A stretch of DNA of 64,000 nucleotides from positions 1 through 64,000 of the forward strand of contig JAUWYP010000002.1 in NCBI GenBank assembly GCA_030615765.1, in the 5' to 3' direction. The notes under the pieces are model-generated. The model did no database searches. It was not told the origin of the DNA and worked only from the letters and a program-made list of their open reading frames with translations. The stretch's first letter is position 1. Every line of letters begins with the position of its first letter. The DNA comes from Dehalococcoidia bacterium (lineage in GTDB: Bacteria > Chloroflexota > Dehalococcoidia > SM23-28-2). Both the position numbers and the translations under genes were made by a program. Positions 3,566 to 55,903 of this stretch are shown here, one piece after another.

Positions 3566-3710
3566 CACGACTGGTTCATTCTCGATGGGTGAGAGACTTT
3601 CGGGCCAATCCGCGGGTTGAAACCCGCGTCTTCCTAGAATCGATACATAATGCTGCGGGATTCATCCCGCAGGGCTGGAAAGTTCAGCCACCAACGGCGA
3701 ACCGGTTTCT
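3566..3710. repeat. Dispersed intergenic repeat, copy 1 (no 30-bp insert)
   Basis: Shares order and sequence with 22423-22600: CACGACTGGTTCATTCT..., GCGGGTTGAAACCCGC hairpin, CTGCGGGAT-TC-ATCCCGCAG hairpin, ...AACCGGTT. Confidence 0.8.
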
Positions 3711-22000: not shown

Positions 22001-22402
22001 TCGGAGACGAGGCAGCTCCGCGAGCCCGTCGGCATCGAGATCGCCCCCAACGGCGACATCCTCGTGGCCGATGCCTGGAATAGTCGCATCCAGCAGTTCG
22101 ACAGCCAGTTCAATCCAGTGGCCCAGTTCCCCATGCCGGGCTGGATCCCGGATGACCCGTCCACCAAGCCCTATCTGGTCCTGGCACCCGATGGCAGCAT
22201 CATCGCCAGCGAGACTTCCCGCCATCGCCTCCTGCGCATCGGCGCCGACGGCAGCATCCTATCCATCCTGGAGGGCCTGGAGGAGACGGCTCTGGTCAGC
22301 CCCACCAGCCTGGCCCTCGACGACCGAGGCTTCCTCTACATCTCCAGCAGCGGCGCCAATCAGATCCGCCGCGTCCTCCTGACCGATATGCCTGTGTCCT
22401 GA
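19091..22402 (+). CDS. TIGR03663-like (Agl23-associated) GT-C membrane protein fused to an NHL beta-propeller
   Basis: FHHDESLHAQYAWYLFRDGTYDHNPMMHGPFQFF; C-terminal repeated NLYVADSGNHRIQKF units; ATGA overlap with the upstream gene. Confidence 0.85.
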   Translation: MSSQESPSPVLAPSASPFERLGSLRLRLDWELALYVLFIAVGAALRFWDLGARAFHHDESLHAQYAWYLFRDGTYDHNPMMHGPFQFFGTAFNFLLFGVSDYTARILPAFAGTALIGLPFFLRRHLGRSGALIAAGLIAFSPTLLYFSRFARNDIYIGLWTLGLVVCLWRYIEEGRHRYLYIAAGLLALSFATKEATFLNAAIFIGFLDLWIAQTLANRIRERENLDPLVTSFVFLAFVPCAWAIAALWPFMTEKTRWRIGLGERPRAADFLLILGTLTLPQFAAAIQVPLEALGMQAADWSRHLFTLNLGPLSGAEKVTREELTGFLTVSILVVSTAFIGLRWNWRSWLIVGAIFYAVFGLLYSTFLTNPDGFGSGIWNSLDYWLEQQGERRGGQPFFYYLVLLPAYEFLPLLFAFATAAVALAKAAFGPDTPDGHLARILFFVAGFLAILALTASAAGNSTVGMVLGLVALALLVFSLRVNPFLRFLTFWMIMSLFAYSMAGEKMPWLNVHLALPVVILAAYTLGQVWKLAQTGEWRFRLPSYTWPLLAAAVGAGAVAFGVFGPSGGLVTRILVGLAAALAIAALTSTLRGRAMALVPLAALIGVLLLFSGRAAWMASFQEGDGADAREMLVYTQTTPDIPKILDQIEQVAEETGLGKDLPIVVDSRDAFSWPWVWYLRNYHSDSYPNLEGGQEPPANAILLVNISNDADMQPHLDGYGPGQPYSHRWWFPETYRGLELEDGKRKNLLTIFADFVASLGDDDTWDTWWRYFRDHEPPQPTGSANAVAYFPEEFAPADIVDGQEPLEAPKADSEGRFTLGERGTGPGRFIKPVGLAVDGEGNLYVADSGNHRIQKFDSEGEFIAEVGSLGDDEGEFNEPWGVAVDTEGNLYVADTWNNRIQKFDRDLNFLTQWGQPASDLLNPKPYDFWGPRDVATDAEGNVWVADTGNGRVLKFAGDGTFLASLGEPGSETRQLREPVGIEIAPNGDILVADAWNSRIQQFDSQFNPVAQFPMPGWIPDDPSTKPYLVLAPDGSIIASETSRHRLLRIGADGSILSILEGLEETALVSPTSLALDDRGFLYISSSGANQIRRVLLTDMPVS

Positions 22403-22422
22403 CCCTCGCCCCTCCCTGCGAC

Positions 22423-22600
22423 CGTGACTGCTTCATTCTTGGTGGGTAGCGGTTTTCGGACCATCCCGCGGGTTTCCGCCGAAGGCGGATCCGCCTCTGG
22501 CGGAGAAACCCGCAGCTTCCCAGAATCGAAGATTTGGTGCTGCGGGATTTATCCCGCAGGGTTAGGGAGTTCACCCACCGGTGCTGAACCAGTTACCTAC
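22423..22600. repeat. Dispersed intergenic repeat, copy 2 (carries the 30-bp palindromic insert)
   Basis: Same order as 3566-3710, interrupted at 22475-22504. Confidence 0.8.
22475..22504. repeat. 30-bp double-palindrome element, intergenic copy
   Basis: TCCGCCGAAGGCGGATCCGCCTCTGGCGGA between GCGGGTT and GAAACCCGC. Confidence 0.85.
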
Positions 22601-22686
22601 GACGGCCCGCGTTGCTTGACCAACTGCCCCCACCCTATAATGATGCGTGCCCTCTCCAGGCGGGAGGAAAAGGCGGGCCAAACATC

Positions 22687-23712
22687 TTGCTGCGCAACCG
22701 TCAGCTTTGGATTGGCATACTGGGGACGGCCCTCTTCCTGGGTTTGTTCTTCTGGCGTACCGATCTGGGCGACATGGCCGACAAGCTGACCGAGGCTAAC
22801 TACTGGTGGTTCGCTCCCGCCATCGCCGTCTGGTTCCTCTCGGCCTGGTTCCGCTCCTTGCGCTGGCACTACCTGCTGCGCCCCATCGGCAATCTCTCCA
22901 CCCGGACCCTCTACCCCGTCGTGATCATCGGCTACATGGCCAACAACCTCCTGCCGGCGCGGACCGGGGAGCTGGTGCGGGCCTACATCATGGACAAGAG
23001 GCACGGTCTGAGCATCATGGCCACCCTGGGCACGATTGCGGTGGAGCGCCTGTTCGACGGGCTGGTGCTGGTCGTCTTCTTGATAGCCGTGGGGGCCTTC
23101 GTGGGCCTCAGCCAGGAGCTGGGCATCCTGGCCGCCGCCATGTCCGCCACCTTCGTCGCCGTTCTGGCCCTCTTCCTGTTCGCCGCCTCCTCCCAGGAGC
23201 GAACCGAACGCTGGCTGGCAAGGCTTCTGCGTTTCCTGCCGGCGCGAGCCCAGGAGAAGGGCAGTAAGTGGGCTGGCTCGTTCGTAGCGGGGCTAGGCGC
23301 CTTGCAGAGCCCCTGGCACATCGCCGCCGTGCTGATCACCTCGGTGGTGGCCTGGGCCCTGGAGGCCACCATGTACTTCATGGTGGGCGTCTCCTTCGAC
23401 CTGGGCGAGGCCTTCCCCATCTTCATGATGGTGGCGGCTGCCGCCAACCTGGCGATAACCCTTCCTTCCACCTCGGGCGGCATCGGGCCCTTCGAGTTCT
23501 TCGCCAAGGAGACGCTGGACTTCGTCGGGGTGAGCCGGGGGACGGCCGGTGCCTACGCCGTTGCCCTGCACGCCCTGCTCCTGCTGCCGGTGGTGGCGGC
23601 CGGCCTTGTCTTCCTGTGGGTCATCAACCTCTCGCTGGGCGAGGCCCTGCGCCGTCCGGCCCAGCCCAAGCTGGCCCCCGACGCGGGCCTGGAAGGGGAG
23701 GGTAGCGAATGA
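22687..23712 (+). CDS. Lysylphosphatidylglycerol synthase TM region/flippase-like protein
   Basis: GYMANNLLPARTGELVRAYIM, GTIAVERLFDGLVLVVF, SGGIGPFEFF motifs; start uncertain (TTG 22687 or upstream). Confidence 0.8.
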   Translation: MLRNRQLWIGILGTALFLGLFFWRTDLGDMADKLTEANYWWFAPAIAVWFLSAWFRSLRWHYLLRPIGNLSTRTLYPVVIIGYMANNLLPARTGELVRAYIMDKRHGLSIMATLGTIAVERLFDGLVLVVFLIAVGAFVGLSQELGILAAAMSATFVAVLALFLFAASSQERTERWLARLLRFLPARAQEKGSKWAGSFVAGLGALQSPWHIAAVLITSVVAWALEATMYFMVGVSFDLGEAFPIFMMVAAAANLAITLPSTSGGIGPFEFFAKETLDFVGVSRGTAGAYAVALHALLLLPVVAAGLVFLWVINLSLGEALRRPAQPKLAPDAGLEGEGSE

Positions 23713-25574: not shown

Positions 25575-26015
25575 CTGACGCCCTACGAGATACGGCCCGC
25601 CAGCCCAGGGGACATGCCCTTCATCCACGAATGCGTCCGCCGCTTTCGTCTGGACAATGAGTCTCTGGATACCGAGCAATTCATGACCGTTCGGCAGGGC
25701 GGAGAGATCATTGCCTTCGGCCGGATCAAGCCCTACGGCGACGACGTGTACGAGCTGGGCTGCGTGGGCGTCGTCGAAGAGCAGCGCGGCCGGGGCCTGG
25801 GCCGACTGGTGGTGCAGGAGCTGATCGAGCGCTTCCCAACGGACGCCGTGTACGTCACCACCGACCTGACCGAGTATTTCGACAAGCTCGGCTTCACCCG
25901 AACGGACAGCCTGCCGCGCCCCCTGACCGAGAAGATCGAGAACGTTTGCGACAAGCTACGCTCCGGCGTGGTGGGCATGGTCTACCAGCGCCAGAGGAGC
26001 GGAATAGCGAGATGA
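25575..26015 (+). CDS. GNAT family N-acetyltransferase, apparent CTG start
   Basis: LTPYEIRPASPGDMPFIHECVRRF, VEEQRGRGLGRLVVQELI; no ATG/GTG/TTG near the N-terminus; GGGAGG-N6-CTG. Confidence 0.85.
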   Translation: MTPYEIRPASPGDMPFIHECVRRFRLDNESLDTEQFMTVRQGGEIIAFGRIKPYGDDVYELGCVGVVEEQRGRGLGRLVVQELIERFPTDAVYVTTDLTEYFDKLGFTRTDSLPRPLTEKIENVCDKLRSGVVGMVYQRQRSGIAR

Positions 26016-27928
26016 GAACCTACCGGGAGCTGCGCCAGCAGGCGAAGGAAGCCTGGCGAGCGGTGGAGAGCCCCTCGCGGCCGCGCATAGCGGTCGGCGT
26101 CACTACCTGCAGCCGGGCCGTCGGCGCCGACGAGACGCTGGAGGCCATCCGCCAGGAGGTGTCGCGCCGCGGCCTGGAGGTGGACGTGGCCGTCACTGGC
26201 TGCTGGGGCCTCTGCTACGCCGAGCCGATGGTGGAGGTCGCCAAGCCCAACGGCTCTCGCATCCTCTATCAGAAGGTGACCGCCGAGCGGGTGCCCCAGC
26301 TTGTCGAGGAGGCGCTGGCATCCACAGACGGCATCTGCCAGGAACTGGCCCTCGCTACACTTTCGTCCCAGCCCGTGGATGGCGTGCCGCCGCTGTCATC
26401 TCTCGACTTCATGGCCGTGCAAGAAGAGCGCTATCTCATGGCCAACTGCGGCGTTATCGAGCCCGAGAACATCGACCACTACATCGCCCGCAGCGGCTAC
26501 GAGGGCCTGACCAAAGCCCTGGGCATGTCCGACGAGGACGTCATGTGGGAGATCTCCGATGCCGGGCTGTGGGGACGGGGCGGTGCCGCCTTCTCCACCG
26601 GTCGCAAGTGGGAGTTCCTGCGAGACGCTAAGAGCAAGCCCAAGTACATGATCGGCAACGCCGACGAGGGCGACCCCGGCTCATTCGTCAACCGCACCCT
26701 CATGGAGAGCGACCCCCACTGCATCATCGAGGGGATGATCATCGGTGCCTACGCCACCGGCGCCAGCTACGGCTACATCTACATCCGCGATGAGTACCCC
26801 CTGTGTGTGGAGCGCATGGAGCTGGCCCTGCGTCAGGCGCGCGAGCGGGACCTCCTGGGCCAGAGCGTCCTGGGCAGCGGCTTCTCCTATGACATGGAGA
26901 TCGTGCGCGGGGCTGGCAGCTACGTCTGCGGCGAGGAGACAGGCCTCATCGCCTCCATCGAGGACGCTCGCGGCATGCCCAAGATCCGCCCACCCTTCCC
27001 CGCTCAGGCGGGCGTGTTTGGCAAGCCCACCAACGTCAACAACGTGGAGACCTATGCCAATGTGCCCCTCATTCTGCGCCGCGGGGCCACCTGGTACGCC
27101 TCGGTGGGCACTGAGAAGAACAAGGGCACCGCAATCTTCAGCCTCTCGGGGCACATCCGGCGGGCGGGAGTGCTGGAGGTGCCCTTCGGCACGCCGCTGC
27201 GGCGGCTGGTCTACGAGGCCGGCGGCGGCCCACCCGAGGGGCGCTCCCTCAAGGCCATCCAGCCGGGCGGGCCCTTGGGAGGCGTCCTCCATCCCAGGGA
27301 CGTGGACCTGCCGCTGGAGCCCGAGCCCTTCCGGGAGAAGGGCGCACTCCTGGGCAGCGGCGGTCTTGTCATCGTCGACGACTCCGCCTGCATCGTCGAT
27401 ATGTGCCTGTACTTCGAGTGGTTCGCCGAGGACGAGTCCTGCGGGCGCTGCAGCACCTGCCGCGGCGGCACCCAGCGGATGGTGGAGATCCTGCGGCGCA
27501 TCGCCGATGGCGGCGGCCGCCCCTCGGACATCGGCCTCCTGCGCCTCCTGGCCGACGCCATGCGCTACGCCAACTGCGCCCACGGCCAGGCCGCGCCCAC
27601 CGCCGTGATGAACACCATCGAGGCCTTCCTGGACGAGTACCAGGAGCACATCGAGAGGAAGCGCTGCCCGGCGAAGGTCTGCCGCGGCCTCATCCGCTAC
27701 GAGATCGCGGGCAAGAGCCCCAGCCTGCCCGAGGCGGCGGCCATCTGCCCCACGGCGGCCATCGTTCAGCGAGACGCCGCCGCAGGCGAGTCCGCCTCTG
27801 GCGGAGCGCGCTACGCCATCGACCAGGGGCTGTGCATCAAGTGCGACGCCTGCCGCGAGCTGGCGCCGGCGGCGGTGCGGGTGGTGGATGCCTTCCAGCG
27901 CGACGCCGCCGGCAGCCAGTCGATCTGA
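26012..27928 (+). CDS. nuoF: NuoF-like NADH-binding flavoprotein subunit with N-terminal thioredoxin-fold and C-terminal ferredoxin domains
   Basis: GRGGAAFSTGRKWEF, NADEGDPGSFVNRTLME, ESCGRCSTCRGGTQRM; ATGA overlap with the GNAT gene. Confidence 0.9.
   Translation: MRTYRELRQQAKEAWRAVESPSRPRIAVGVTTCSRAVGADETLEAIRQEVSRRGLEVDVAVTGCWGLCYAEPMVEVAKPNGSRILYQKVTAERVPQLVEEALASTDGICQELALATLSSQPVDGVPPLSSLDFMAVQEERYLMANCGVIEPENIDHYIARSGYEGLTKALGMSDEDVMWEISDAGLWGRGGAAFSTGRKWEFLRDAKSKPKYMIGNADEGDPGSFVNRTLMESDPHCIIEGMIIGAYATGASYGYIYIRDEYPLCVERMELALRQARERDLLGQSVLGSGFSYDMEIVRGAGSYVCGEETGLIASIEDARGMPKIRPPFPAQAGVFGKPTNVNNVETYANVPLILRRGATWYASVGTEKNKGTAIFSLSGHIRRAGVLEVPFGTPLRRLVYEAGGGPPEGRSLKAIQPGGPLGGVLHPRDVDLPLEPEPFREKGALLGSGGLVIVDDSACIVDMCLYFEWFAEDESCGRCSTCRGGTQRMVEILRRIADGGGRPSDIGLLRLLADAMRYANCAHGQAAPTAVMNTIEAFLDEYQEHIERKRCPAKVCRGLIRYEIAGKSPSLPEAAAICPTAAIVQRDAAAGESASGGARYAIDQGLCIKCDACRELAPAAVRVVDAFQRDAAGSQSI
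27776..27805. repeat. 30-bp double-palindrome element, degenerate copy inside nuoF
   Basis: GCCGCCGCAGGCGAGTCCGCCTCTGGCGGA; right half identical to the other copies; encodes AAAGESASGG. Confidence 0.7.
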
Positions 27929-30277: not shown

Positions 30278-30354
30278 CGCGCCCTCCATCCCCCGACGCG
30301 CTATAATATCCCTCGAACAGCTTGCGCTCGAGCCTTGGGAGGAGCCGCCGGCCC

Positions 30355-32982
30355 ATGACCACACCCCTGCGCCGTCAGTACCTGGAGATAAAGCGCCGCT
30401 TCCCCCAGGCCATCGTCTTCTTCCGCCTGGGCGACTTCTACGAGACCTTCGACCAGGACGCCGAGCTCGTCTCCCGCGAGCTGGACATCGTCCTCACCTC
30501 GCGCCCCATCGGCAAGGGACAGCGGATACCCCTGGCGGGCATTCCCCACCACGCCCTCGATGGCTACCTGGCTAAACTAATCGCTAAAGGACACAAGGTA
30601 GCTATCTGCGAGCAGGTGAGCGATGCCGCCAAGGAGCCTGCTCCGAGCGGAGGGAAGGGCCGCACCCTGATGGAGCGCCAGGTGGTGCGCGTGGTAACCC
30701 CCGGCACAGTCGTGGAGGGTAATCTCCTCGACCAGCGGGCCAACAACTACCTGGCGTCTCTGGCGGTCGAAGGGGAGCGAGCCGGCATCGCCTACGTGGA
30801 CGTGAGCACGGGCGAGTTCGCAGTCGCCCAGATGGACGCCGACCTGCTGCCCGCCGAGCTCGACCGCCTGCGGCCCGCCGAGCTGGTGCTCCCCGAAGGC
30901 CAGGACCCGCCCGAGGGCCTCCAGGCGGCCGTCAGCCACCTAGAGGTCCATCGCTTCGACCCCGAGGCGGCCGGCGAGCTCCTTCTCGCCCATTTCGGTG
31001 CCGCCTCCCTGGATGCCTTCGGCTGCGCCGACCAGCCCCTGGCGGTGGCCGCCGCCGGCGCCGTCCTCGCCTACCTCCAGGAGAACCAGCGAGGCGCCCT
31101 CGGCCACATCACCCGACTCTCCACCTACAACGCCAGCGCCTTCATGACTCTCGACAGCCAGACCCGCCGCAACCTTGAGCTTTTCGCCAGCGTCCGCCAG
31201 GGCCCACGCAGCGCCTCTCTCCTGTCCGCCATCGATCTCACTAAGAGCTCTATGGGGGCTCGTCTCCTCCGCCGCTGGCTAGGGCAGCCTTTACTCGACA
31301 TAAAAGAACTAGCCCAACGACAGGCCAGGGTGCAGTTCTTCTTCCAGAGCGCCGTCCGCCGCGGCCAGGTGGGCTCCCTGCTGGCCAAGATGCCCGACGT
31401 AGAGCGCCTGCTGGGGCGCATCAGCGCTGGCCTGGCCTTGCCGCGAGAGGTGGTGAGCCTGCGGCGTGGCCTCGAGCTGGTGCCGTCGCTGCGTCAGGCC
31501 ATCGCCGCCGATGGGGAGGAGGCGGCAGAAGCGAGCGAGCTGTTGGCCCGCCTTCACCCCTGCCAGGAGACAGCCGCCCTCATCGAGCAGGCCATCGACG
31601 ACGAGCCCGCCGCCTCCGCCGTAGGCGGATCCGCCTCTGGCGGAAGCTTCGAGGAGGGCGAGGTAATTCGGGCCGGCTTCTCGCCGGAGCTGGACAGCCT
31701 GCGCAGCGTGGCCCGCGACGCCCGCCAGTACCTGGCCGACCTGGAGCAACGGGAGCGCCAGCAGACGGGCATCAAGTCCCTGAAGGTGCGCTACAACAAG
31801 GTCTTCGGATACTACATCGAGGTGAGCAAGGCCAACCTGAGGCTGGTGCCCGCTCACTACCAGCGGCGGCAGACCCTGGTGGGCGGCGAGCGCTTCACCA
31901 CCCCTGAGCTGAAGGAGCGCGAGTTCCAGATCCTCCACGCCCGCGAGCGCCAGGAGGAGCTGGAGGCGACCCTCTTCCGTCAGGTGTGCGCCCAGGTGGC
32001 CGCCGAGGGCAAGCGCATCCTGGAGCTAGCGGCCGCCATCGCCGAGACCGACGTCTTCTGCGCCCTGGCCGAGGTGGCCGCCCGCTACGGCTACGTGCGG
32101 CCGGAGGTGACCCAGGACGACGAGATCGCCATCCGCGACGGCCGCCATCCGGTGGTGGAGCGCATGCTGCCTTCGGCAGCGTTCGTCCCCAACGATACCC
32201 ACCTCTCCAACCAGGACGCCCAGATCATCGTCCTCACCGGGCCCAACATGGCGGGCAAGTCCACTTACATCCGCCAGGTGGCCCTCATCGTGCTGCTGGC
32301 CCAGATGGGCAGCTTCGTACCCGCCGCCTCGGCCCGCATCGGCATCGTTGACCGCATCTTCACCCGCGTGGGCGCCCTGGACGACATCGCCGCCGGCCAG
32401 TCGACCTTCCTGGTGGAGATGCTGGAGACGGCTAATATCCTCCACAACGCCACGCCCAGGTCCCTCCTCCTGTTCGACGAGATCGGCCGCGGCACCAGCA
32501 CCTACGACGGCATGGCCATCGCCCGCGCCGTGGTGGAGTTCATCCACCACCGGCCGGAGGTGGCCGCCAAGACCCTCTTCGCCACCCACTACCACGAACT
32601 GGTCGACCTGGCCGCCTTCCTGCCGCGGGTGAAGAACTACAACGTGGCCGTGAGCGAAGAGGAGGGGCGAGTAGTCTTCCTCCACCGCATCCTTCCCGGC
32701 GGCGCCGACAAGAGCTACGGCGTGCACGTCGCCCAGCTTGCCGGCATGCCCCGACCGGTCATCCAGCGGGCGCAGGAGGTGCTGAGCGAGCTGGAGGACA
32801 AGGGCGACCGCCTGCCCCGCCGACGCCGCCCCCGCCAGGCCGCCGTGCAGCTATCCTTCCTGGGCGCCAGCGACGCCGTCCTGGAGGAGCTGGCCTCCCT
32901 GGACGTGGACGGCCTCACCCCTCTGCAGGCCATCACCAAGCTCTACGAGCTGCGAGAGAGGGCGCGGGGGCCTAACCCCTAG
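30355..32982 (+). CDS. mutS: DNA mismatch repair protein MutS
   Basis: TPLRRQYLEIKRRFPQAIVFFRLGDFYETF, TGPNMAGKSTYIRQVALI, DEIGRGTSTYDGMAIA. Confidence 0.97.
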   Translation: MTTPLRRQYLEIKRRFPQAIVFFRLGDFYETFDQDAELVSRELDIVLTSRPIGKGQRIPLAGIPHHALDGYLAKLIAKGHKVAICEQVSDAAKEPAPSGGKGRTLMERQVVRVVTPGTVVEGNLLDQRANNYLASLAVEGERAGIAYVDVSTGEFAVAQMDADLLPAELDRLRPAELVLPEGQDPPEGLQAAVSHLEVHRFDPEAAGELLLAHFGAASLDAFGCADQPLAVAAAGAVLAYLQENQRGALGHITRLSTYNASAFMTLDSQTRRNLELFASVRQGPRSASLLSAIDLTKSSMGARLLRRWLGQPLLDIKELAQRQARVQFFFQSAVRRGQVGSLLAKMPDVERLLGRISAGLALPREVVSLRRGLELVPSLRQAIAADGEEAAEASELLARLHPCQETAALIEQAIDDEPAASAVGGSASGGSFEEGEVIRAGFSPELDSLRSVARDARQYLADLEQRERQQTGIKSLKVRYNKVFGYYIEVSKANLRLVPAHYQRRQTLVGGERFTTPELKEREFQILHARERQEELEATLFRQVCAQVAAEGKRILELAAAIAETDVFCALAEVAARYGYVRPEVTQDDEIAIRDGRHPVVERMLPSAAFVPNDTHLSNQDAQIIVLTGPNMAGKSTYIRQVALIVLLAQMGSFVPAASARIGIVDRIFTRVGALDDIAAGQSTFLVEMLETANILHNATPRSLLLFDEIGRGTSTYDGMAIARAVVEFIHHRPEVAAKTLFATHYHELVDLAAFLPRVKNYNVAVSEEEGRVVFLHRILPGGADKSYGVHVAQLAGMPRPVIQRAQEVLSELEDKGDRLPRRRRPRQAAVQLSFLGASDAVLEELASLDVDGLTPLQAITKLYELRERARGPNP
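31615..31644. repeat. 30-bp double-palindrome element inside mutS
   Basis: TCCGCCGTAGGCGGATCCGCCTCTGGCGGA; in-frame SAVGGSASGG; 29/30 identical to 22475-22504. Confidence 0.85.
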
Positions 32983-51201: not shown

Positions 51202-52553
51202 TACGCCGATTCCCGCCAGCGAACCTCGTACAGGCGCACGGGATCCTCGAACCCCCGCAGGGCCACCTCGCCCTGGTCCGAGAACAGGAACCCCTTGCCC
51301 GCCGCAAGCTCCCGCACCACGTTGGCGGCGAGTATCTCCCCACCCGCTGCTTTCGCCGCGATGCGGGCCGCCAGGATCACCGTCATCCCGAACAAATCCT
51401 TCTCCTCCGCGATCGGCTCCCCAGCATTGAGGCCGATGCGCACCCGCAACGGCTCCTCCGCCGACTCGTTGTGCTCAGCGAACGCCCGCTGCATGGCGAT
51501 GGCGCACTCCAGCGCCCGCGTCCCCGAGGAGAAGGAGGCCATGAACCCGTCGCCCAGCGCCTTCACCTCCGAGCCACCGTGTGCCCGCAGCGCCTCCCGC
51601 ACGATGCGCTCGTGCGCCCGCAGCACCTCCCGCGCCTTGGCGTCGCCGAGCCGCTGGGTTAGCGCCGTCGACCCCTCCACGTCCGTGAACAGGATGGTGT
51701 GAACAGCGCCCGGTGCGAGCGGCTCGGCCCACACTGCGGCCTCCTCACCCCCGCCCATGAACTCGTTGATGGCTCTCAGCACCGCCCTGGTGTCGCCCAG
51801 GAAGGCCGCCCCGGATTCCCCTTCCAGGAGAGCCAGGCGGGCGTTCGGTATTCGAGAGACAAGGCCGCGAGCGACATCCACGCTAAGCCAAGAGAGCTGC
51901 CGACGGTGAAGCACCAGGGTCGGCGCCTTCACCTGCGGCAGGAGGTCCGCAACGTCAAACGCCCCGATCGCGCCAAGGGCCGCCTTCATCGCCTCCTGCG
52001 CGATGCATTCGCGCATTAGTACGGCATAGCGATGCGCCGGCTCACCTTGCGACCACCCCAGCAGGGTATGCGCCACCGTCTCGCTGTACACATGCCAATC
52101 CGTATCTCTCAGTTGGGCTAATGCCCGAAGCTGCGGCGATACTGCGTCGCGCGTCACTGCCCAGGAGTGCCACAATATGAGGTGCGAGACCTGGTCCGGG
52201 TGGCGAGCCGCGTAGGTAATTGCCACCGGCCCCGAATGAATGGGCGCAAAGAGAGCAAACCTCTCGAGGCCCAGGCGGTCCACCACCGCCTCCAGGTCCA
52301 GCACCTGGGCGTCCAGCGAGAAGTCGCTCACGTCCCGATCCGAGAGCCCGGCCCCTCTGCAGTCGTACCGCACCACCATTCTTGTTCGCGCTAGCGGCTC
52401 ATACCAGCGGCGCCACTCAGGTATCTGCCACTCCATCTGGATATGGCTGACCGGAATCGTTGGCATCTCCACGAAGGGCGTGCCTTCCCCCAGCGTCCAG
52501 AAGGCGATGTTCACCCCGTCGGCCGTCGTCGCGTACTGAATGCGCGGCTCCAT
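51201..52553 (-). CDS. Alpha/beta-hydrolase-like domain fused to class III nucleotide cyclase, paralog A
   Basis: N-terminal MEPRIQYATTADGVNIAFWTLGEG; C-terminal ILFTDVEGSTALTQRLGD, EVKALGDGFMASF. Confidence 0.85.
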   Translation of the reverse strand: MEPRIQYATTADGVNIAFWTLGEGTPFVEMPTIPVSHIQMEWQIPEWRRWYEPLARTRMVVRYDCRGAGLSDRDVSDFSLDAQVLDLEAVVDRLGLERFALFAPIHSGPVAITYAARHPDQVSHLILWHSWAVTRDAVSPQLRALAQLRDTDWHVYSETVAHTLLGWSQGEPAHRYAVLMRECIAQEAMKAALGAIGAFDVADLLPQVKAPTLVLHRRQLSWLSVDVARGLVSRIPNARLALLEGESGAAFLGDTRAVLRAINEFMGGGEEAAVWAEPLAPGAVHTILFTDVEGSTALTQRLGDAKAREVLRAHERIVREALRAHGGSEVKALGDGFMASFSSGTRALECAIAMQRAFAEHNESAEEPLRVRIGLNAGEPIAEEKDLFGMTVILAARIAAKAAGGEILAANVVRELAAGKGFLFSDQGEVALRGFEDPVRLYEVRWRESA

Positions 52554-52558
52554 AGTGG

Positions 52559-53179
52559 CTATCCCCGAGGCTCTCTTTTCATCGTCCAGAAGTGAGGCCC
52601 GCCGTTGGGCAGGTCATCCTCCACCACTACCTCGAAGCCATGCCTCCGATAGAAGGGTAGGTTCCTCTCCTTCTCCGTTTCCACATAGCAGAGCAGGCCT
52701 TCAGCGTCCGCCCGTGCCAGAACCGGCTGTATCAGAGCGCCGCCGATGCCCTGGCCCTGACACGGCGGGTCGACGCCTAGAGTAGGAAGATACCAGTGGC
52801 GCGACGGGACGTCGCGCTTGTGCAACTGCGTCTCGTAGTTCACGCCGCTCATCAACCGACCGAACGCCGCCCGGCCGAACTTCAGGGGCACTAGCATCAT
52901 GCCCGCCAGGATCAGCCGCACAACGCTCGGCGGGTACTTCCCGGGCGGAATCCACAGCGCGGCGCCTTCGACCTTGCCCGTAGTAGTGTGCACTTCGCCG
53001 TACTTGTGGCAGTACCTCGCCCAGATTTCCATGAACCAGCGCAGGACCTGCGCCCGCCTGGACTCGTCGGGGAAGAGCCACGACCAGTGGGGGTCGTCAT
53101 GGAACGCCCTGGCGAGTACCTCCGCCACCTCACGCACTTGGCTCGGCGCGAGCGCGACAGGTTCCGCCGCTGCAATCAT
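52559..53179 (-). CDS. GNAT family N-acetyltransferase
   Basis: WYLPTLGVDPPCQGQGIGGALIQPVLARAD, FYRRHGFEVV. Confidence 0.85.
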   Translation of the reverse strand: MIAAAEPVALAPSQVREVAEVLARAFHDDPHWSWLFPDESRRAQVLRWFMEIWARYCHKYGEVHTTTGKVEGAALWIPPGKYPPSVVRLILAGMMLVPLKFGRAAFGRLMSGVNYETQLHKRDVPSRHWYLPTLGVDPPCQGQGIGGALIQPVLARADAEGLLCYVETEKERNLPFYRRHGFEVVVEDDLPNGGPHFWTMKREPRG

Positions 53180-53195
53180 GGTCGGAGATGCTCCA

Positions 53196-54551
53196 TCAGC
53201 CGTCCTCCCGCCAGCGCACGTCGTACAGGCGCACGGGGTCCTCGAAGCCGCGAAGGGCTACGTCCCCTCGGTCTGAGAACAGGAAGCCCTTGCCCGCCAC
53301 CAGCTGCCGCACCACGTCCGAGGCCACGATCTCCCCGCCCTCAGCCTTCGCCGCCACGCGCGCCGCCAGGATAACCGCCGTCCCGAACAGGTCCTCCTCC
53401 TCCGCTATCGGCTCCCCCGCGTTCAGGCCGATGCGCACCCGCAACGGCTCCTCCGCCGACTCGTTGTGCTCAGCGAACGCCCGCTGCATGGCGATGGCGC
53501 ACTCCAGGGCCCGCGTCGCCGAGGAAAACGAGGCCATAAAGCCGTCCCCCATCGTCTTCACCTCCGAGCCGCCGTGGGCCTTCAGGGCCTCCCGCACGAT
53601 GCGCTCGTGGGCCCGCAGCAGCTCCCGCGCTTTGGCGTCACCGAGGCGCTGGGTCAGCGCCGTCGAACCCTCAACGTCCGTGAACAGGACGGTGCGGAAG
53701 GCGCCCGCTGCCGGGGCCTCTGCCCCCGCTGCGGCTTCCTCACCTTCGCCCAGGAACTCGTCGATGGCCCCCAGCACCGCCTCCATGTCGCCAAGGTACG
53801 GTGCCGCCGACGCTCCCTCCAGGAGGGCCAGGCGGGCGTCCGGTATGCGGGAGGCAAGAGTCCTTACCAGCTCAATCGAAGGGAAAACTAGTTCGCGACG
53901 GTGCAACACCAACGTTGGCGCCTTTATCCGTGGCAGGAGGGTAGCCACGTCAAACTGGCGAAATACCGGCAACATCAATTGCAAAGCCTCCTGGCTCACA
54001 CTTTCCCGCATCAGTGCGGCAAACCGGTCAGCAGGCTCGCCTGCCGACCATCCAAAGGCCGCGTGCGCCACCGTCTCGGAAAACAGCTCCCAGTCCCGAT
54101 CCAAGAGGGCGAGCAATGATGCGACTCGCGGTAACCCGTAGTAATCCGAGGCCCGGGCATAGGAGCACCAGAGTATGAGGTGCGATACGCGCGCAGGGTT
54201 GCGTACTGTGTAGTTCACCGCCACCAGCCCTGACAACTGAGAACCGAACAGTGCGAACTCCTTCAAGTTCAGGCGATCGACGACAGCGTCCAAGTCCAGC
54301 ACATGGGCGTCGAGGGAGAAATCGGTGACATTGCGCTCCGACAGTCCGCTGCCTCTGCCGTCGTAGTGGATCAACTGGCGCTTCTCGGCCAGGCGCTCAT
54401 ACCAGCGGCGGCACTCAGGTGTCCGCCACCCCAGTTGGATATGGCTCCAGGGAATGATCGGCGTGTACACAAGGGGCATGCCTTCCCCCAGCGTCCAGAA
54501 GGCGATGCTCACCCCGTCGGCCGTCGTCGCGTACTGGATGCGCGGCTCCAT
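53196..54551 (-). CDS. Alpha/beta-hydrolase-like domain fused to class III nucleotide cyclase, paralog B
   Basis: MEPRIQYATTADGVSIAFWTLGEGMPL start at 54551, TGATG overlap with paralog C; VLFTDVEGSTALTQRLGD, EVKTMGDGFMASF. Confidence 0.85.
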   Translation of the reverse strand: MEPRIQYATTADGVSIAFWTLGEGMPLVYTPIIPWSHIQLGWRTPECRRWYERLAEKRQLIHYDGRGSGLSERNVTDFSLDAHVLDLDAVVDRLNLKEFALFGSQLSGLVAVNYTVRNPARVSHLILWCSYARASDYYGLPRVASLLALLDRDWELFSETVAHAAFGWSAGEPADRFAALMRESVSQEALQLMLPVFRQFDVATLLPRIKAPTLVLHRRELVFPSIELVRTLASRIPDARLALLEGASAAPYLGDMEAVLGAIDEFLGEGEEAAAGAEAPAAGAFRTVLFTDVEGSTALTQRLGDAKARELLRAHERIVREALKAHGGSEVKTMGDGFMASFSSATRALECAIAMQRAFAEHNESAEEPLRVRIGLNAGEPIAEEEDLFGTAVILAARVAAKAEGGEIVASDVVRQLVAGKGFLFSDRGDVALRGFEDPVRLYDVRWREDG

Positions 54552-55903
54552 CAGCCGCCCTCCCGCCAGCGCACGTCGCACAGGCGCACGGGGTCTTCGA
54601 AGCCGCGCAGCGCTACATCGCCACGGTCGGAGAACAGGAATCCCTTGCCCGCCACCAGCTGCCGCACCACGTCCGAGGCCAGGATCTCGCCGCCTTCCGC
54701 CTTCGCCGCGATGCGAGCCGCCAGGATCACCGCCGTCCCGAACAGGTCCTCCTCCTCCGCTATCGGCTCCCCGGCGTTCAGGCCGATGCGCACCCTTATC
54801 GGCTCCTCCGCCACCTCGTTGTGCGCGGCAAAGGCCCGCTGCATGGCGATGGCGCACTCCAGGGCTCGCGTGGCCGAGGAGAAAGACGCCATGAACCCGT
54901 CGCCCATCGTCTTCACCTCGGAGCCGCCGTGGGCTTTCAGCGCGTCCCGCACGATGCGCTCGTGCGCCCGCAGCACCTCACGTGCTTTCGCGTCGCCGAG
55001 CCGCTGGGTCAGCGCCGTCGAACCCTCCACGTCCGTGAACAGGATGGTGCGGAAGGCACCCGCTGCCGGCCCGGCCCCCGCTGCGGCTTCCTCACCCTCG
55101 CCCAGGAACTCGTCGATGGCGCTCAGAACAGCCTCCACGTCGCCCACCCACGGCATTGCCGACGTCCCCTCCAGGACGGCCAGGCGGGCGTCCGGAATGC
55201 GGGAGGCAAGACCCCTCGCGACATCGACCTGGGGGAACGCGACCTGGCGGCGGTGCAGCACCAACGTGGGCATCCTCACCTGGGGCAGGAGAGGCGCAAC
55301 GTCAAAGTGCTGGCTGGCTTCACGGGCTGCCCGCATGGCCTCCGGTGCGGCGCATTCCCGCATGAACGCAGCGAAGCGGCGCGCCTCCTCCCCTGCCGAC
55401 CACCCAAACACGACATGCGCCACCGTCTCCGTATATATCTCCCAGTCTTTGTCTCTAAGTGCGCGTAGTGATTCAACTTGTGGCAAGCGGTAGTAGTCAG
55501 AGGCCCGCGTGTAGGAGCACCACAGGATGAGTTGCGACACTCGCTCCGGGCGGCGGGCCGCGTAGGCGATGGCCACAGGCCCCGAGTGATAAGGCGCGAG
55601 CAGAGCGAACTTTTGCAGCCCCAGACGGTCTACTATGGCCTCTAGATCCGTTACGTGGGCCTCCAGGGAGAAGTCGGTCACGTCGCGGTCGGACAGCCCA
55701 GACCCTCTGCTGTCATATCGGACAAGCATCCTCTTCTCCGCCAGACGCTCATACCAGTTGCGGTACCCCGGGAATTGCCACTCCAATTGGATATGGCTCA
55801 ATGGAGGCGTCGGCATCTGCACAAGGGGCATGCCCTCCCCCAGGGTCCAGAAGGCGATGCTCACCCCGTCGGCGGTCTGCGCGTACTGGATGCGCGGCTC
55901 CAT
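54551..55903 (-). CDS. Alpha/beta-hydrolase-like domain fused to class III nucleotide cyclase, paralog C
   Basis: MEPRIQYAQTADGVSIAFWTLGEGMPL; ILFTDVEGSTALTQRLGD, EVKTMGDGFMASF. Confidence 0.85.
   Translation of the reverse strand: MEPRIQYAQTADGVSIAFWTLGEGMPLVQMPTPPLSHIQLEWQFPGYRNWYERLAEKRMLVRYDSRGSGLSDRDVTDFSLEAHVTDLEAIVDRLGLQKFALLAPYHSGPVAIAYAARRPERVSQLILWCSYTRASDYYRLPQVESLRALRDKDWEIYTETVAHVVFGWSAGEEARRFAAFMRECAAPEAMRAAREASQHFDVAPLLPQVRMPTLVLHRRQVAFPQVDVARGLASRIPDARLAVLEGTSAMPWVGDVEAVLSAIDEFLGEGEEAAAGAGPAAGAFRTILFTDVEGSTALTQRLGDAKAREVLRAHERIVRDALKAHGGSEVKTMGDGFMASFSSATRALECAIAMQRAFAAHNEVAEEPIRVRIGLNAGEPIAEEEDLFGTAVILAARIAAKAEGGEILASDVVRQLVAGKGFLFSDRGDVALRGFEDPVRLCDVRWREGG

Follow-up and report, generated by a model that had tools for sequence, protein, structure and literature searches.

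The double-hairpin elements (DHEs) of Allomyces mitochondria are noncoding pairs of adjacent hairpins that occur in genes, rRNA, and spacers, are not removed from transcripts, and vary in frequency between close relatives; an RNA route of movement has been suggested for them because target duplications are absent (PMC2800124). The Rickettsia palindromic elements (RPEs) are palindromic and non-autonomous, lie in frame within protein genes that are unrelated to each other, and remain translated (PMC10969869). REP, REPIN, and BIME sequences are palindromes of 20 to 40 bp, often arranged as doublets, with compensatory stem changes, some intragenic copies, and presumed mobilization in trans (PMC3733652, PMC3116915). 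The rRNA genes of CPR bacteria carry short insertions that lack ORFs, mostly at the tip or the base of an rRNA stem-loop (PMC11270868).

In the window (the whole stretch of 64,000 nucleotides analyzed here), an intergenic repeat contains the 30-bp block TCCGCCGAAGGCGGATCCGCCTCTGGCGGA, bounded by GCGGGTT (positions 22468 to 22474) on the left and GAAACCCGC on the right (Table 1). A second copy of the repeat reads GCGGGTT followed directly by GAAACCCGC (3612 to 3627), and the difference is exactly 30 bp, with zero duplicated target bases. A sequence-only reading of the window had described this block as two back-to-back 15-bp hairpins, clean relative to the repeat copy at 3566 to 3710 and with no obvious target duplication; this description holds, and the two hairpins are perfect, with 6-bp stems and 3-nt loops. 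With up to 3 mismatches allowed, the 30-mer gave 2 matches in the window compared to 0 in 100 shuffles. An Rfam scan of positions 22300 to 22700 returned only a chance match to mir-3199, which scored 20 bits where the cut-off is 100. The earlier reading was correct but understated: it missed the copy in mutS, the copy in a NuoF-like ORF, and the mobile-looking nature of the host repeat, and it did not foresee the cross-phylum distribution, stem covariation, and tRNA targets described below.

Table 1. Positions of the 30-bp element, its copies, and its host repeat in the window.
Feature	Position	Strand	Basis or content
30-bp double-hairpin element, canonical TCCGCCGAAGGCGGA + TCCGCCTCTGGCGGA	22475..22504	+	exact pattern match
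Hairpin 1, triloop GAA (NNA type)	22475..22489	+	fold and NNA loop rule
Hairpin 2, triloop TCT (TNN type)	22490..22504	+	fold and TNN loop rule
Full copy in mutS, 1 mismatch (loop 1), in frame	31615..31644	+	pattern match, SAVGGSASGG
mutS ORF	about 30346 to 32982		contains element copy 31615-31644
Decayed copy GCCGCCGCAGGCGAG + TCCGCCTCTGGCGGA, in frame, AAAGESASGG	27776..27805	+	NuoF-like ORF 25946-27928
Host repeat of about 149 bp, MITE-like, with nested 30-bp element (179 bp)	22417..22595	.	
Second host-repeat copy without 30-mer; empty site between 3618 and 3619	3566..3710	.	

The host repeat has terminal inverted repeats (ACTGGTTCA..GGTGGGT and ACCCACC..TGAACCAGT) and internal hairpins (GCGGGTT.AACCCGC and GCGGGATTTATCCCGC). 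About 7 copies of this repeat of roughly 150 bp are present in the genome, some of them empty at the element site, including a copy on contig C5 (G000:C5, L025; E 3e-32) that is also an empty paralogue of the site at 22475. The orthologous spacer of sister genome G001 lacks the whole 179-bp block, as does G002. These alignments are most simply explained if the host repeat entered this genome first and the 30-mer is nested inside it. The repeat (22417-22595, 3566-3710; L024 to L029) is an intergenic MITE-like family in its own right, and its GCGGGTT.AACCCGC hairpins are REP-like. Elsewhere in the window, a repeat finder identified three long direct repeats at 51211 to 55903 (blocks of about 300 nt, 60 to 87% identical, with spacings of 1995 and 1352), which are probably tandemly duplicated genes.

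The 30-bp element consists of two abutting 15-nt hairpins with 6-bp stems, the first with an NNA triloop and the second with a TNN triloop. The stems are variable, and it is the architecture that defines the family. When 0.93 Mb was scanned for perfect 6-bp/3-nt hairpin pairs at spacings of 0 to 12, 95 canonical and 10 noncanonical pairs were found at spacing 0, and each other spacing yielded 0 to 3 noncanonical pairs. The noncanonical pairs mostly obey the loop rule (loop 1 ends in A, loop 2 starts with T), with divergent stems such as TCCGGC, TCAGGC/CCAGGC, and TCTCGC/TCCCGC; TCACCC/CCAACC was also seen. Mismatch-tolerant pattern searches provided 113 distinct noncanonical 30-mers for covariation analysis. 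Exactly two stem changes were present in 71 of the 113, and pairing was restored in 56 of these 71 (chance, 1/69 or 1.4%; p about 1e-88). Such covariation could in part reflect self-correction of palindromes during replication and not recognition. The predicted DNA fold of the 30-mer (−12.5 kcal/mol, z −3.9) consists of two hairpins, both paired to the last base. As RNA, the canonical form folds into one long and very stable hairpin, and a variant folds as two. A larger-loop form, TCCGCC-N9/10-GGCGGA followed by TCCGCCTCTGGCGGA and measuring 36 to 37 bp instead of 30, occurs in Elusimicrobia and Omnitrophota (L078, L079, L103, L107, L114, and L134).

About ten pattern matches were found in the window's genome (2.08 Mb, 56 contigs), located in the host repeat, in several genes in frame, and in tRNA-Val pieces on contig C36, and the reversed control pattern gave none. 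Within the genus, two relatives have 0 and 0 copies, whereas the nearest sequenced other genus (G003) has about 84. Of the checks that the sequence-only reading had proposed, copy number proved not to be trivial, with about 10 here and about 84 in G003, and presence proved not to be identical at orthologous loci. These genome-wide counts come from pattern searches, which undercount noncanonical stems; reverse-read control patterns gave 0 matches in every genome with full-length copies. At least 119 stretches contain the exact 21-mer GGCGGATCCGCCTCTGGCGGA; they come from Patescibacteria, Elusimicrobia, Omnitrophota, Lentisphaerae, Kiritimatiellae, Ignavibacteria, Chloroflexota, Deltaproteobacteria, Bacteroidota, and others; in some of these, chiefly from Elusimicrobia and Omnitrophota, the loop of the first hairpin is 9 to 10 nt. 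Near-identical copies occur in many phyla, above all in Patescibacteria, where 66 of the 145 genomes of one evenly sampled class carry the element. Among 50 carrier genomes counted, copy number ranged from 1 to 75, with 68 and 75 in genomes of Kiritimatiellae and Lentisphaerae. The carriers include many uncultured bacteria from unrelated phyla, and nearly all are metagenome-assembled genomes. Plasmid and phage collections contained essentially no copies, and two viral contigs held one copy each, one of these imperfect.

Many copies lie in frame within genes, which bears out the tolerance in coding DNA proposed from sequence alone. The phase that encodes SAxGGSAxGG was used by 62 of the 70 copies with a clearly dominant long frame, on either strand. 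Because the TTYRAA target alone favors this phase, we took the TTYRAA-corrected value of 55% as the fair expectation, and the excess over it is significant (p 2e-9). In G003, phase 0 was found in 4 of 8 frame-assigned insertions, and frame calling there is unreliable; the phase statement therefore rests on the other hosts. Copies in genes are very probably translated as a flexible decapeptide, SAxGGSAxGG, and the natural reading of the phase bias would be that out-of-phase insertions are removed by selection.

The flanks of 178 non-redundant copies showed a signal only within 3 bp on both sides, with background beyond. In the symmetrized logo, T reaches 75% at −2, and T (55%) and C (27%) predominate at −1, with the mirror image across the junction (A 75% at +2). 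The target is thus dyad-symmetric YY^RR, mostly TTY^RAA, and insertion is flush, with neither duplication nor deletion. The corresponding positions in the GC-rich G003 read GCY^RGC, so the rule shared by both is YY^RR. Also in G003, elements at L337, L340, L345, L350, and L351 share the flanks TGAGCC and TGTCGA and the reverse, indicating that the element there belongs to a larger dispersed repeat. A general preference for the tips of inverted repeats was rejected, since the mean stem score equaled the null; a small excess of long-stem targets was seen (5 of 178 at stem 8 or more versus 0.5%).

The T loops of tRNAs (TTC^RA) match or nearly match YY^RR, as do their D loops, and degenerate tRNA copies, several of them beside GIY-YIG nuclease genes, are repeated targets. 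The same D-loop site is targeted in L016, L165, L230, and L234 by elements whose stems differ, and one copy lies within an RNase P RNA-like sequence (L102). With ARAGORN, zero intact tRNAs were detected spanning an element junction. On contig C36 of the window's genome, two degenerate 5′ pieces of tRNA-Val flank a GIY-YIG ORF and adjoin an intact tRNA-Val. Each piece holds two 30-bp double hairpins, which lie apart and differ in their stems, in the order GGGCGATT, element, AGCTCAGTT, element, GGTTAGAGCGC, compared to GGGCGATTAGCTCAGTTGGCTAGAGCGC in the intact tRNA-Val. Small stand-alone GIY-YIG cassettes beside or between duplicated tRNA fragments, next to an intact tRNA, were observed at L016/L019 (G000:C36:107-690), L087, L165, L198, L233, and L239. 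From one genome to another, similar GIY-YIG proteins accompany the same type of tRNA, which looks like tRNA-targeted homing of GIY-YIG genes.

Comparison of orthologous and paralogous sites yielded empty counterparts of many copies. In sister genome G001 (MutS 91% identical), the mutS site lacks exactly these 30 nt, and no other base is duplicated or lost. Across 18 aligned MutS orthologues, four independent 10-residue insertions of the family lie at four positions in three genomes (one in G000, the window's genome; two in G003; one in G019). Each is missing from the rest of the alignment, and that of the window is not present in the 17 other MutS proteins. When a script joined the flanks of each copy and searched the DNA examined, 50 of the 178 copies proved to have an empty relative that aligned without gaps; the script demanded an ungapped junction, so exactness was not itself tested, and some weak matches were spurious (L016_579, for example, matches another element). 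The strong pairs (among them L001/L025, L250/L270, L196/L099, and L220/L138, with the tRNA pairs at L087, L198, and L234) are convincing. An intact neighboring tRNA provides the empty site for L087, L198, L234, and L016. At all exact empty sites examined the unit is exactly 30 bp long, and no target duplication was found at mutS, host-repeat, or tRNA empty sites. The empty orthologous sites, the empty paralogous sites, and the presence/absence differences between relatives show that a discrete 30-bp unit inserts, in agreement with the sequence-only reading, which had taken the filled and empty pair as a sign of insertion (or precise loss) and not of gradual drift. Three orthologues (L106, L151, and L172) share one insertion, with flanks 72 to 75% identical and elements identical at 28 to 30 of 30 positions. 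The element has therefore diverged less quickly than the DNA around it, which might be due to recent re-insertion, to transfer, or to correction of the palindromes. At L113, a variant element occurs twice, 162 bp apart (L113:1573 and L113:1735), with the same flanks, and was apparently duplicated along with its surroundings.

At any single paralogous pair, the filled state could be ancestral and the empty site the product of a precise deletion. For the MutS pattern of four positions in 3 of 18 genomes, that account would call for exact losses in parallel, dozens of them; we give it hardly any credence and reject it on the alignment of the 18 orthologues. Still less credible is an artifact, whether adapter or linker sequence or misassembly. 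The element core does include a BamHI site (GGATCC), and the carriers are mostly metagenome assemblies, but stem variants are compensated, the reading phase is biased, and one site is common to three orthologues with flanks only 72 to 75% identical. The assemblies are moreover independent and come from many studies, one being deposited as a chromosome (CP070837.1).

On comparative evidence, we consider it likely, with good confidence, that the 30-mer is a mobile double-hairpin element that is non-autonomous and is moved in trans, probably via a single-stranded hairpin intermediate. The enzymes discussed below are candidates only, and two of them, Y1 (HUH) transposases and GIY-YIG nucleases, are the ones with any statistical support. 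Because the element has no gene, we infer a trans-acting enzyme; this enzyme would recognize folded hairpins more than sequence, and such recognition would imply a single-stranded DNA (or RNA) intermediate. Horizontal transfer would spread the element between phyla, since nothing more than a 30-nt substrate and an enzyme of wide distribution would be needed. Persistence would probably range from neutral to mildly deleterious, and insertions that are out of phase or in intact tRNAs would be cleared by selection. No autonomous version, with hairpins flanking a gene, was recognized among the single hairpins in the loci examined.

Three sources of this activity were weighed, ranked as Y1 type, then RNA mediated, then GIY-YIG type. 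The element might be REP-like or a minimal IS200/IS605-type element mobilized as single-stranded DNA in trans by Y1 (HUH) transposases or RAYTs, a possibility worth considering that we nonetheless doubt. Hairpin recognition, absence of target duplication, and in-frame intragenic copies are typical there (PMC6006769, PMC3733652). A Y1 gene is present in 7 of 7 carriers versus 19 of 54 non-carriers in the Chloroflexota panel (hypergeometric p about 0.0015, uncorrected for phylogeny) and in 49 of 66 carriers versus 40 of 79 non-carriers in Patescibacteria (p 0.004). However, the unpaired GTAG/CGTC tag and the guide tetranucleotide of these systems are absent: the hairpins are terminal, reaching both ends of the element, and the 178-copy flank logo contains only TTY/RAA, a two-sided, dyad-symmetric target signal rather than a one-sided tetranucleotide. 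No RAYT gene flanked by 30-mer copies was found in the loci examined, where only one element/Y1 pair lies within 250 bp, its Y1 gene flanked by a different REP. Moreover, 17 of the 66 Patescibacteria carriers have no detectable Y1, one of them with 16 copies. Y1 and element numbers correlate weakly across the 145 Patescibacteria genomes (rho 0.28, below the value for GIY-YIG), and with many carriers lacking Y1, it was rejected as sole mobilizer. Separately, a RAYT-like Y1 gene at L051:1757-2236 (G007) is flanked by its own REP, GGCGGGTCAGGCTTCAGCCTGACTC, which is unrelated to the 30-mer.

Movement through an RNA intermediate, in which transcribed hairpins are copied back into DNA, seems unlikely to us. 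Anatomy and the lack of duplications are as in the Allomyces elements (PMC2800124), the RNA fold is very stable, and the recurrent sites are tRNA derived, with one copy in the RNase P RNA-like sequence; against this, interrupted intact tRNAs were not found, and the canonical RNA forms one long hairpin, whereas the architecture maintained is two. We judge improbable a GIY-YIG homing-type nuclease that cleaves within tRNA loops or at comparable YY^RR sites, the element being copied into the break. GIY-YIG was the only recurrent family in an unbiased clustering of neighboring ORFs (7 loci plus L016, L233, and L239), the two lie within 250 bp of each other in 14 of 20 element/GIY-YIG pairs, and copy numbers correlate across the 145 Patescibacteria genomes (rho 0.45, p 1e-8); the D-loop site taken in four loci by elements with different stems points the same way. 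In most close pairs, the GIY-YIG cassette lies beside or between duplicated tRNA pieces, with the element in the loop of a degenerate piece, yet this proximity may merely reflect cassettes duplicating tRNA pieces that serve as neutral targets. The majority of elements are not near a GIY-YIG gene, Chloroflexota genome G007 has 7 copies with UvrC as its only GIY-YIG protein, and G031 has 19 GIY-YIG matches and zero elements. Known GIY-YIG cuts are staggered, and staggered cuts would not yield a flush insertion. Strong in Patescibacteria, the association failed in the Chloroflexota panel, and GIY-YIG was likewise rejected as sole mobilizer. Since the GIY-YIG link fails in Chloroflexota and Y1 is missing in some carriers, neither is established as the mobilizer.

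Our search covered the open-access literature, with most subscription journals and preprints outside it, and found no description of the element; its cross-phylum range, fixed 30-bp size, and definition by structure only were not found described there, and a text search with the core 12-mer returned only papers on unrelated subjects. It is conceivable, and we put this forward tentatively, that the element represents a class of ultrashort mobile DNA that has so far gone undescribed and is defined by its structure and not its sequence. It would cross phyla by means of an enzyme, whether dedicated or co-opted, for which this role is not yet known, and would place decapeptide linkers in essential proteins. 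If so, a gene-free 30 bp would suffice for a mobile element that crosses phyla; to our knowledge, a 30-bp element, if mobile, would be among the smallest mobile DNAs. Seeding of ten-residue flexible linkers in core proteins such as MutS, DnaJ, and PheT would then be a natural source of protein indels, and bacteria would offer a system for testing how mitochondrial double-hairpin elements move. For genome annotation, the element explains SAxGGSASGG insertions that are lineage-specific, as well as the interrupted copies of tRNAs found in Patescibacteria and other bacteria of groundwater.

Compared with the known systems, the 30-mer shares with the CPR rRNA insertions the host group and short length; the published text on those insertions mentions neither hairpins nor palindromes (PMC11270868). 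MITEs are similarly non-autonomous, trans-mobilized, and dispersed, but the 30-mer is 30 bp long and has no target duplication and no identified parent transposon; at 22417 to 22595 it is the host repeat, not the 30-mer, that is the MITE-like part. REP, REPIN, and BIME sequences resemble it in their short paired palindromes, compensatory stems, and presumed movement in trans. In contrast to them, the 30-mer has no GTAG/CGTC tag or spacer between its hairpins, and its copies are common within genes instead of mostly extragenic. The comparison with RPEs made in the sequence-only reading stands as a working analogy, since both are palindromic in-frame insertions in unrelated protein genes (here 62 of 70 copies and the four MutS insertions), but not as membership: RPEs are about 150 bp long and are reported from one genus (PMC10969869), whereas the 30-mer forms two separate hairpins, crosses phyla, and at the empty sites examined measures exactly 30 bp, outside the RPE length range of about 100 to 150 bp. 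On anatomical grounds, the closest match is the class of mitochondrial double-hairpin elements (Allomyces, and the repetitive hairpin-forming elements of sponges), which likewise comprise two adjacent hairpins, are noncoding, and lack target duplications. The match is one of anatomy, as 30-bp sequences whose stems vary freely hold little phylogenetic signal. Those elements are organellar and lineage restricted, whereas the 30-mer is bacterial, fixed at 30 bp, and found in many phyla; its target, YY^RR, is defined, and it encodes a decapeptide in phase.
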